Shown here piece by piece: positions 21,130 to 34,321 of a DNA stretch of 34,321 nucleotides (position 1 is the first letter of the stretch; each line of letters starts with the position of its first letter). The DNA comes from an uncultured Erythrobacteraceae bacterium. GTDB taxonomy: Bacteria > Pseudomonadota > Alphaproteobacteria > Sphingomonadales > Sphingomonadaceae. The position numbers and the translations under genes were made by a program. Location of the stretch: NCBI GenBank assembly GCA_950071875.1, contig CATMNW010000003.1:1-34321 (forward strand), in the 5' to 3' direction. The notes below the pieces were generated by a model, which had not been told where the DNA came from, searched no databases, and saw nothing but the letters and a program-made list of their open reading frames with translations.

Positions 21130-22107
21130 TTATGCAGGCATCTGCTGACTGGCGCAGTGAAAGCCGCCCCCTCCGGCAAGTACGGCGTCGCCTGGCAGGC
21201 CGATGGTTGCGCGGTCAGGAAACAGGGCGCTGACCGCCTCGATCCCGGCTTCGTCATGTGGGCTGCCAAACGTCGGTACGACCACCAAGTTCGTGGTAAT
21301 GGCAAAATTGGCGTAGCTTGCCGGCTCTACATGGTCGCCCGAAGTAACGAGACCGGGGGAAGGAATGCGAGCGAGCTCGACCCCGGCGGCCTCGATCCGC
21401 CGAGCTGCATCGGCATAGATTTCGGCATTGGGATCATCGCTTCCGGTTGGCTCGGGTAACGCAACCTTCCCCGGCGCAACGAACCGCGCCAGATTGTCGA
21501 CATGCCCGTCAGTATGATCGTTGACGAGCCCGTCGCCCAACCAGAGCACGCGCTCAAAGCCGAGGTCGCGCTTCAACCGGTGCTCTATGTCTTCGCGAGA
21601 TAGCTCCGGATTGCGGTTCGGGTTCAACAGGCACTGTTCGGTCGTGATGACAAGGCCGGTGCCATCGCCATCGATAGCTCCGCCTTCGAGAATCCAGTCG
21701 GCAAGTTCCAGTGACAACCCCGCATCCCCGGCAAGTTCGGCACCGACCGTCTGGTCTCCATCCATCAGGTACTTGCCGCCCCACCCATTGAAGCCGAAGC
21801 GACGAGCGGCGCGGGCACCGTCATCGTCTTTCAGCACCAGCGGGCCAGTGTCGCGCAGCCAGACATCGCCGTAGATACGGCGTTCCAGCTTTACGTCGGG
21901 AGTGACAAGCTGACTGGCACGCGCTTCGTTGGCCGCATCGCGCACCAGTAGCCTGACCTCCTGCCCGCTCTCGGCCACCGCATTGGCGAAAGCCGCGATC
22001 TGTTCCTGCGCGCGAGGGAGAACTTCTGGCCATTCGTCCGCATCGTGGGGAAAGCCGATCCACAACCAATCCTGCGGTGCCCATTCGGGCGGCATCATGA
22101 ACCCCAT
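21130..22107 (-). CDS. aguA: Agmatine deiminase family protein
   Basis: MPPEWAPQDWLWIGFPHDADEWPEVL, VWLRDTGPLVL, GWGGKY, LEGGAIDGDGTGLVITTEQCLLNPNRNP, DGHVDNLARFVAPGKV, AGGGGFHCASQQMPA (catalytic Cys region). Confidence 0.93.
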   Translation of the reverse strand: MGFMMPPEWAPQDWLWIGFPHDADEWPEVLPRAQEQIAAFANAVAESGQEVRLLVRDAANEARASQLVTPDVKLERRIYGDVWLRDTGPLVLKDDDGARAARRFGFNGWGGKYLMDGDQTVGAELAGDAGLSLELADWILEGGAIDGDGTGLVITTEQCLLNPNRNPELSREDIEHRLKRDLGFERVLWLGDGLVNDHTDGHVDNLARFVAPGKVALPEPTGSDDPNAEIYADAARRIEAAGVELARIPSPGLVTSGDHVEPASYANFAITTNLVVVPTFGSPHDEAGIEAVSALFPDRATIGLPGDAVLAGGGGFHCASQQMPA

Positions 22108-22138
22108 GGATCGGTTCTCCGCAGCGTCAGCGTCAGCG

Positions 22139-23845
22139 TCAGGCGGCCGGCGCACAGCCGGCGCCGTCCTCGGCGCAATTCTCGTCACGTGTCGCCTTGA
22201 ACTCGTCGCCTTCGTTCCAATTCGGCCAGCTTGTGCTGTCGGCCAACATCCGGCCGATACGATAGAACAGCGAAAGGTCGCTCATCACGCCCGACCAATC
22301 CCAGTTCGGATCGTATTCGTCCTTCGGCCCGTGGTAGCGGTTCTCGCGGTAATCGCTGGCCACGGCTGCACCAGCTTCGGTTCCGCCCTCGATCAGGTCT
22401 TCACCGCCATCGAGATACAGCATCGGCACGCCGCGTTTCGCAAACGCAAAATGGTCCGAGCGATAATAGTAACCGGCTTCCGGATTGGGGTTGGGCGTTG
22501 TGACCCGGTCGTCGTTCATCAAGGCCTTGTCGAGGAACAGGTCGAGTTGCGATTTACCCGGGCCGACAACAGTCACGTCTTTCGCTGCGCCAGCCATCAG
22601 AAAGGCATCCATATTGATCCCGCCAACGGTCTTGTTGAGCGGGAACACCGGGTTGGCCGCATAATAATCCGCGCCAAGCAAACCCGATTCTTCTGCCGTC
22701 ACGGCCAGGAAGACCAGGCTTCGCGCCGCCGGTCCGGCCTTGGCGTGGGCTTCTGCCAGCGCGACGAGTGCGGCAGTACCGGTCGCATTGTCGACCGCGC
22801 CGTTGCAGATGTCATCGCCATCCGGCGCGGCAGTACACCGCCCGAGGTGATCCCAATGCGCAGTGTGCATGACATACTCGTCTTCGCGTTCGCTGCCGGG
22901 CAACATGCCGATCACGTTCTTCGACGCGAAAGTCCGGATGTCGTTGGAAAAGCTGGTCGAGGCGGTAAGACCAAGCGGAACGGGCGTGAAATCCTTCTTG
23001 CGGGCAGCCGTCATCAGCTCGTCGAGATCCTGCCCTGCGGCGGCAAGGATCTGGCGCGCCTTTTCTTTCTGCACCCAGCCGTTGACCTGTGTCATCGGGG
23101 GCGGGTTGTCGCCGCGCGAAGCATACGCCTGTGGGCCGGACCAGCTGCTTTCGACCACGTTCCAGCCATAGCTGGCCGGTTCGGTATCGTGGATGATGAT
23201 CGCCCCTGCCGCGCCCTGGCGGCCAGCTTCTTCATATTTATAGGTCCAGCGGCCGTAATAGGTCATCGCCTTGCCGTTGAAGGGCCCATCGAGGGTTTCG
23301 GTGCCATAATCGGGATCGTTAACGAGGATGACCGCGGTCTTCCCGGTCATGTCCAGCCCTTCGTAGTCGTTCCATCCCTTCTCGGGCGCATTGACGCCGT
23401 ATCCGACGAAAACGAGCTCGCTGTCTTCAAGGCTTGTATCGGCATCTTCGCGGTAGGAAACGCCCACCCAATCCGTGCTGTAGGCAAGCTGCATGTCGCC
23501 ACCTTCTCCGCCGGAAATCGTCAGCGGCGCGTAGTCCCTGCCCGTGATTTCCACCAGGGGAACGTCCTGCACCCAACTACCGTTATTGCCCGGCTGGAGG
23601 CCTGCCTTCTCGAACTCCTCGATCAGATAGGCGACAGTCTTCTCCTCGCCGGCAGTGCCGGGCGCGCGACCTTCGAATTCGTCGGAGGAAAGGCGTTCGG
23701 TCACGCGCTTCATCGTCTCTTCGGAAATGGTGCCATCGGCGACATCGGGCAGGTCGAGCGCATCCGCCCCGGTATCGACAGAGCCGAGATCCTGGCACGC
23801 GGTGAGCAACAGAGCCGAACAAGCGGCAAGGGCTATGCGTTTCAT
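22139..23845 (-). CDS. M28 family metallopeptidase, predicted lipoprotein
   Basis: Lipobox-like LLLTACQ in MKRIALAACSALLLTACQ; zinc-site motifs HTAHWDHLG, AVDNATGTAAL, TAEESGLLGADYY, RSDHFAFAKRGVPMLYL. Start at 23845; the ORF track extension to 24307 is antisense to glnE. Confidence 0.93.
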   Translation of the reverse strand: MKRIALAACSALLLTACQDLGSVDTGADALDLPDVADGTISEETMKRVTERLSSDEFEGRAPGTAGEEKTVAYLIEEFEKAGLQPGNNGSWVQDVPLVEITGRDYAPLTISGGEGGDMQLAYSTDWVGVSYREDADTSLEDSELVFVGYGVNAPEKGWNDYEGLDMTGKTAVILVNDPDYGTETLDGPFNGKAMTYYGRWTYKYEEAGRQGAAGAIIIHDTEPASYGWNVVESSWSGPQAYASRGDNPPPMTQVNGWVQKEKARQILAAAGQDLDELMTAARKKDFTPVPLGLTASTSFSNDIRTFASKNVIGMLPGSEREDEYVMHTAHWDHLGRCTAAPDGDDICNGAVDNATGTAALVALAEAHAKAGPAARSLVFLAVTAEESGLLGADYYAANPVFPLNKTVGGINMDAFLMAGAAKDVTVVGPGKSQLDLFLDKALMNDDRVTTPNPNPEAGYYYRSDHFAFAKRGVPMLYLDGGEDLIEGGTEAGAAVASDYRENRYHGPKDEYDPNWDWSGVMSDLSLFYRIGRMLADSTSWPNWNEGDEFKATRDENCAEDGAGCAPAA

Positions 23846-31908: not shown

Positions 31909-32535
31909 ATGACATTGCTGGAACCCTATAACGCACCTTTTGCGGTAGCCTTGCTGCTGATGGTGGTGATGCTGGCAATTCAGTTGCTCGGCGTGCTCGA
32001 CATCGATTTCGATCTCGACGCCGATGGCGACGGAGCCATCGGGGCCGGACCGGTTGATGGGCTGCTTACTTTACTGGGCCTGGGACGTGTCCCGCTGACA
32101 GTTTGGCTTGTCGTGTTCCTGTTCCTCTTTGCGGCTCTCGGCCTTTCCATCCAGGAGCTGGCGCTCAGCCTGACTGGCGGAGCGCTCGACGCGTGGCTGG
32201 CTGGTATCCTCGCGGGTGCGGTGGCGGTGCCGGTAACAGCGGTCGTCGCACGCCCGCTGGGCCGCATCCTGCCACAAGACGAAACCAGCGCAGTCGGTGT
32301 CGATACGCTGGTTGGACGCCGCGCCACCATTACCGACGGTATTGCGCGGCAAGGCTTTCCTGCCCGGGCGCGGGTCCGAGATATGCACGGCCAAACCCAT
32401 TACGTCATGGTGGAGCCCCATGAAACCGCGTCCGAAATCCATGCCGGCGACGAGGTTCTGCTCGTCCGCCGCGATAACAACACATTCTTTGGCACAGCCC
32501 TGGCCGAGCGCCGCCTGTCGCCTGCGCAATCTTGA
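31909..32535 (+). CDS. yqiJ: YqiJ-like (NfeD/OB-fold) membrane protein
   Basis: N-terminal hydrophobic region with LDIDFDLDADGDG, C-terminal OB-fold-like GVDTLVGRRATITDGIARQGFPARARVRDMHGQTHYVMVEP. Adjacent to a YqiK-like flotillin. Confidence 0.82.
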   Translation: MTLLEPYNAPFAVALLLMVVMLAIQLLGVLDIDFDLDADGDGAIGAGPVDGLLTLLGLGRVPLTVWLVVFLFLFAALGLSIQELALSLTGGALDAWLAGILAGAVAVPVTAVVARPLGRILPQDETSAVGVDTLVGRRATITDGIARQGFPARARVRDMHGQTHYVMVEPHETASEIHAGDEVLLVRRDNNTFFGTALAERRLSPAQS

Positions 32536-32547
32536 GAAGGAGGCAAA

Positions 32548-34005
32548 ATGGACGTCCTATCCAACACACTGGTCCTGATCGTGGCTGGCATCGTGGCCGT
32601 GCTCACCCTGGGCCTGTTCCTGGCGAAACTGTATCGTCGTGCGTCCAAGGAAGTCGCCTTCGTCAGGACGGGCGTGGGGGGCGAAAAGGTTGTGATGAAC
32701 GGTGGTGCACTGGTGCTGCCGGTCTTCCACGAAACCATGCCGGTCAACATGAACACGCTGGTACTCAGCGTCGTACGCCGCGACGGCGAGGCGCTGATCA
32801 CGCTCGACCGCTTGCGGATCGACGTGAAAGCGGAATTCTATGTCCGCGTTAAGCCCGATAGCGAAGCGATCGCGATGGCTGCGCAGACGCTCGGCCAGCG
32901 CACGATGCAGCCCGAGATGCTGAAAGACCTTGTCGAGGGCAAGTTCGTTGATGCGCTGCGCTCGGTTGCAGCTGGGATGACGATGAACGAATTGCACGAA
33001 CAGCGTGCCGATTTCGTCCAGAAGGTGCAGCAGGTTTCGTCCAACGATCTGGCGATGAACGGACTCGAGCTGGAGTCCGTTTCACTGACCGGTCTCGACC
33101 AGACGAGCATCGAACACTTCAACGCCAACAATGCCTTCGACGCCGAGGGTCTCACGAAGCTGACCGAGCAGATCGAGGCGCGCAAGAAACTGCGCAACGA
33201 TATCGAGCAGGACACGCGCGTGCAGATGGAGACAAAGAACCTCGAAGCCGATGCCCGCAGCTTCGAGATCGGGCGCGACAAGGAATATGCCCGCCTCCAG
33301 CAGGAACGAGAGGTGGAGATCCGCCGCGCCGCGCAATCTTCGGAAATCGCACGCGAGCAGGCTGAGCGTAGCCGCGAAGCCGATGCCGCGCGGATCGAGG
33401 CGAAGAAGCAGGTGGATGCGCAGCAAATCGAGGCCGACCGTCTTGTCGAAGAGGCCCGGATCGACCAGCAGCGCGCGCTCGAAATCGCCCGGCAGGAACA
33501 GCAGATCGCGGTCCAGAACAAGAGCCGCGAGGAAAGCCAGGCCAAGGCCAATGCCGACGAGGCACGTGCCAAGGCGGTCGCTGCGGAAGAACAGGTGGCC
33601 ACCAGCCGCGAGACCGAGATCGCCGAGCGCCAGAAGCGCATCGAACTGATCGAAGCCTCGAAGCAGGCCGAGCGTGACGCGATCAAGATCCGGGTCGATG
33701 CCGAGGCGGAGAAGGATGCGGCCCAGAACCGCGCCGAAGCCGCCCGCCGCGAAGCTGAGGGCGAGGCCGAGGCCGAGAAGCTGCGCGCCGAAGCCGCGCG
33801 CGTGCGCTTCGAAGTCGAGGCTGCGGGCCAGCGCGCCATCAATGAGGCGGCGAACATCCTCTCGATGGAGCAGATCAGCCTGCAGACGAAACTCGCTCTG
33901 CTGAAGGTCCTCCCCGAAGTCATCCGCGAGAGCGCCAAGCCGATGGAGGCGATCGATACGATCAAGATCGTCCAGGTCGACGGGCTCACCAATGGTGGCG
34001 GAAAG
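32548..34005 (+). CDS. yqiK: Flotillin (YqiK-like), SPFH domain; apparently lacks its usual C-terminal tail
   Basis: MDVLSNTLVLIVAGIVAVLTLGLFLAKLYRRASKEVAFVRTGVGGEKVVMNGGALVLPVFHETMPVNMNTL..., long charged coiled coil, ending IDTIKIVQVDGLTNGGG before the sequence changes character. Confidence 0.85.
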
Positions 34006-34321
34006 GGGCAGGGCGGCTGTTACTGGGAACCGGTGGCGGCGGCGCTGGCTCGCAAATCAGGCCAGCCGGTCAAAATCACCATGAGCCGCACCGAGGTTTT
34101 CCACGGCACCGGCCCTACTTCAGGCACCCAAATTACGGTGAAGATGGGAGTCACCAACGCTGGAAAGATCACAGCAGCGGAAGCCCATTTGGTCTTTGAA
34201 GCCGGAGCGTTCCCCGGATCGCCGGTCCCTTCCGGTTGCCGTACAATATTCGGTCCCTACGATATTCCCAACGCCTATATAGAAGGGCTTGATGTTGTCA
34301 TCAACAGCCAGAAGTCGGCTG
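34000..34321 (+). other. Fragment of a xanthine/aldehyde dehydrogenase-family molybdopterin-binding subunit, fused in frame to the flotillin ORF; partial at right edge
   Basis: Same frame as flotillin: GGKGQGGCYWEPVAAALARKSGQPVKITMSRTEVFHGTGPTSGTQITVKMGVTNAGKITAAEAHLVFEAGAFPGSPVPSGCRTIFGPYDIPNAYIEGLDVVINSQKSA, typical of the XDH/CoxL large-subunit family interior. Confidence 0.8.

Follow-up and report, generated by a model that had tools for sequence, protein, structure and literature searches.

The 3′ end of the contig analyzed here is almost certainly (probability of about 98%) chimeric, the product of an assembly error and not a gene fusion. The window (34,321 nucleotides) comprises the entire contig C3, bases 1 to 34321. 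Its plus strand carries an open reading frame (ORF) of 591 codons (32548-34320, ATG at 32548) with an open 3′ end, and the locus cut around this ORF ends 1 base past it, where the contig stops (34321). The initial annotation had described a flotillin frame that continues, with no intervening stop, and enters the interior of a xanthine dehydrogenase (XDH)/aldehyde oxidase large subunit. This was confirmed by the ORF translation, which reads ...DTIKIVQVDGLTNGGGKGQGGCYWEPVAAALARKSGQPVKITMSRTEVFHGTGPTSG... across the join, and by Pfam. Band_7 (PF01145, residues 36-213) and Flot (PF15975, residues 402-508) were found in the first 508 of the 591 residues, and the last 108 residues yielded a match to MoCoBD_1 (residues 484-587, E value of 6.6e-19). 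Since this match spans profile positions 98-203 of 244, the MoCoBD_1 piece represents an interior fragment. The proposed absence of the N-terminal XDH part also held: the hammerhead and the start of MoCoBD_1 are missing from the window, which thus does not contain the combination of hammerhead, complete MoCoBD_1 and MoCoBD_2 that marks members of the XDH family.

The upstream part of the ORF represents a flotillin in the familiar yqiJ-yqiK arrangement. It resembles YqiK-type flotillins in its Band_7 and Flot domains, in the yqiJ-like gene upstream and in its identity to same-genus genes, which reaches 97% for amino acids and lies at 79-88% for DNA. The DNA similarity to the same-genus loci covers both the yqiJ-like gene and the flotillin. 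Judged by these identities, the flotillin part belongs to the binned genome. The difference from the known type lies in the native C-terminal tail and stop, which are missing from the window ORF. In all 19 same-genus loci that were read, the VDGLTNGGGK region is followed by a Gly-rich linker and a conserved stretch close to SGNLATDAVSAALAYRAQAPVLDGLMKELGLDGSSL; in each of them the gene has the conserved tail SGNLATDAVSAALAYRAQAPVLDGLMKELGLDG, which is absent from the window ORF. The earlier suspicion that a further C-terminal flotillin segment is lacking was thereby borne out. The window flotillin is devoid of a native tail of about 100 residues and of its own stop because the contig switches source. 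The true flotillin tail did not turn up in any other part of the bin, a negative result of little weight because the bin is only 76% complete. An agmatine-deiminase-like (PAD_porph) gene is located at 21130-22188 of the window, about 10 kb upstream of the flotillin. One relative (L003) has a PAD_porph homologue directly downstream of the flotillin, and its gene order therefore differs from that of the window.

The 109-residue tail was searched against one genome per species (85,462 species), which returned 27 relatives, mostly from Dehalococcoidia and other Chloroflexota. The best relative was found on contig NVWX01000066.1 (locus L022) of the marine Dehalococcoidia metagenome-assembled genome NORP26 (Chloroflexota). 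Window positions 33996-34321 are identical to this contig at 325 of 326 DNA bases, up to the last base of the window. At the source, the segment forms the interior of an 872-codon XDH ORF, a full-length gene with hammerhead, MoCoBD_1 and MoCoBD_2, whereas the window holds only the interior 326-base piece. Chloroflexota also supplied the next-best relatives, whose DNA identity was about 78% or lower. In the other genomes of the window's genus, the tail was matched only weakly (34-40% amino-acid identity), within frames of ordinary XDH length. Searching the PDB with the 109-residue tail alone returned no match at an E value of 0.001. The single mismatch to the source is located at 34025, about 30 bases from the join, where the window has G and the Dehalococcoidia contig has T; it replaces Leu by Trp at a position where every close relative carries Leu or Ile. 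Due to this mismatch, the two assemblies are not letter-identical. It probably reflects an error (low coverage, near the join) or a strain variant. The rest of the Dehalococcoidia contig is represented in this bin solely by one 89-base match at 80%, located elsewhere; thus, a tail was joined, and the bin does not contain the whole foreign contig. The second half of the source XDH gene (positions 1666-2906 of L022) is rich in N bases, and the NVWX01000066.1 record is itself an imperfect, or partly masked, consensus.

Immediately upstream of 33996, the match to NVWX01000066.1 breaks off abruptly, and the same-genus flotillins cease to match just downstream of the linker. The join is located at 33996 or later. 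About 22 bases at the boundary could belong to either side, as the Gly-rich linker of the flotillin has sequence in common with the GGKGQGG motif of XDH (Table 1). At the join, a same-genus flotillin allele (L004, genome G008) reads GGCGGAAAGGGGCAaGGCGGC, and the Chloroflexota locus L022 reads GGCGGAAAGGGGCAgGGCGGC. The linker of the L004 flotillin has the peptide NGGGKGQGGAQ and the DNA GGCGGAAAGGGGCAAGGCGGC; the Dehalococcoidia gene has the peptide GGFGGKGQGGCYL and the DNA GGCGGAAAGGGGCAGGGCGGC. The two are alike at 20 of 21 bases and share the codon frame, which substantiates the microhomology that had been considered plausible for this tract. As both genes encode G-G-K-G-Q-G-G in the same frame, the frame is kept across the join. 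The binned genome's own flotillin presumably has the same linker as the L004 allele. This would provide about 20 shared bases, a stretch that should be sufficient for a crossing in a short-k assembly graph.

Table 1. Features at the 3′ end of the window
Feature	Position	Strand	Basis
yqiJ-like gene with YqiJ_N and YqiJ_OB domains	31909..32535	+	Pfam PF21001 and PF07290; adjoins the yqiK-type flotillin upstream
Genuine YqiK-type SPFH flotillin, codons 1 to about 483	32548..33995	+	Band_7 and Flot; same-genus identity
Junction of 22 bases, TGGCGGAAAGGGGCAGGGCGGC, assignable to either source	33996..34017	+	Same-genus allele L004 and Chloroflexota locus L022
Foreign 326-base piece, MoCoBD_1 interior of a Dehalococcoidia XDH-family large subunit	33996..34321	+	325/326 match to L022, positions 1340-1665

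Two taxa thus meet abruptly near a contig end, with a short shared sequence at the join that is nearly identical in a same-genus flotillin. This corresponds to chimeric contigs known from short-read metagenome assemblies, which belong to fragmented bins and change source close to a contig end, where the two sources have a short sequence in common; the bin studied here comprises 382 contigs, with a completeness of 75.9% and a contamination of 3.9%. The present case differs in that the switch is in frame and mimics a fusion protein, since the peptide encoded by the shared stretch is the same in the two genes. The assembler would have followed the flotillin of the binned genome up to the Gly-rich linker codons GGC GGA AAG GGG CAG GGC GGC, passed over a stretch of about 20 bases common to both genes into that for the XDH large subunit in a Dehalococcoidia population, and run out of contig 326 bases past the join. 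The shared stretch of about 20 bases would also account for the crossing being in frame.

The crossing itself presumably arose either in this way, during assembly, or from a chimeric read pair. A wet-lab origin, in which a library molecule or read pair was ligated or amplified into a chimera, would fit the position of the join at the contig end, and a tail of 326 bases would be comparable in length to a short-read insert. We nevertheless regard this origin as an unlikely, though not negligible, variant of the artefact, since an assembler that followed a shared k-mer would account more naturally for the near-match of about 20 bases at the join.

A natural flotillin-molybdoenzyme fusion, which would have arisen in one population by a recent cross-phylum transfer of a Dehalococcoidia XDH fragment, is highly improbable. 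The frame is open through the join, and recombination at about 20 shared bases is conceivable. However, such a fusion would demand a transfer recent enough to leave 325 of 326 bases unchanged, and the contig would have to end exactly there, 326 bases past the join. It would also have removed the conserved flotillin tail that all 19 same-genus genes retain, and in return it would have gained an XDH part without hammerhead and MoCoBD_1 start, at best a broken enzyme. The search for the same fusion in other genomes, suggested in the initial annotation, was carried out: the fusion is absent from 400 other genomes of the order, 137 of which matched the query, mostly in the flotillin part, and no flotillin was found beside the XDH relatives at 27 XDH loci. 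The five longest partial matches extending past the flotillin part (G087, G373, G137, G417 and G322) were read and ruled out as fusion candidates, as none of them contains XDH sequence. Their overrun results from a chance resemblance between the native tail VSAALAYRAQAPV and the XDH segment VAAALARKSGQPV.

The preference for a chimeric contig end over a real fusion expressed in the initial annotation was therefore upheld by the near-identical tail from another phylum, the abrupt loss of similarity, the short distance between join and contig end, the absence of the fusion from the 400 other genomes of the order and the L004 allele. One of its arguments did not stand. A shift in base composition had been noted after the join, and the tail indeed has a lower GC content at third codon positions (GC3) than the flotillin (0.64 versus 0.81). 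Yet this value lies inside the spread of the window's own genes (mean of 0.71, standard deviation of 0.06, in windows of 108 codons), and a codon-usage score did not single out the tail from these genes. Base composition was therefore set aside, as it does not decide on the nature of the join.

The chimeric protein most likely exists in no cell, and we therefore propose no functional mechanism for it; the contig end holds no new biology. It does call for caution, as a stop-free, in-frame chimera may enter gene calls and protein databases as an apparent fusion protein. Such mimicry arises when unrelated genes have a Gly-rich motif in common. We recommend trimming the final 326 bases from the contig and not treating the 591-codon call as a single protein. 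Within the order, the closest sequence observed to the Chloroflexota-type tail was an XDH frame in another genome (G060:C67:2330-2569; 80 contigs, 85% complete), which is 53% identical to the tail over 80 residues. This frame could stem from transfer or from contamination of that bin.
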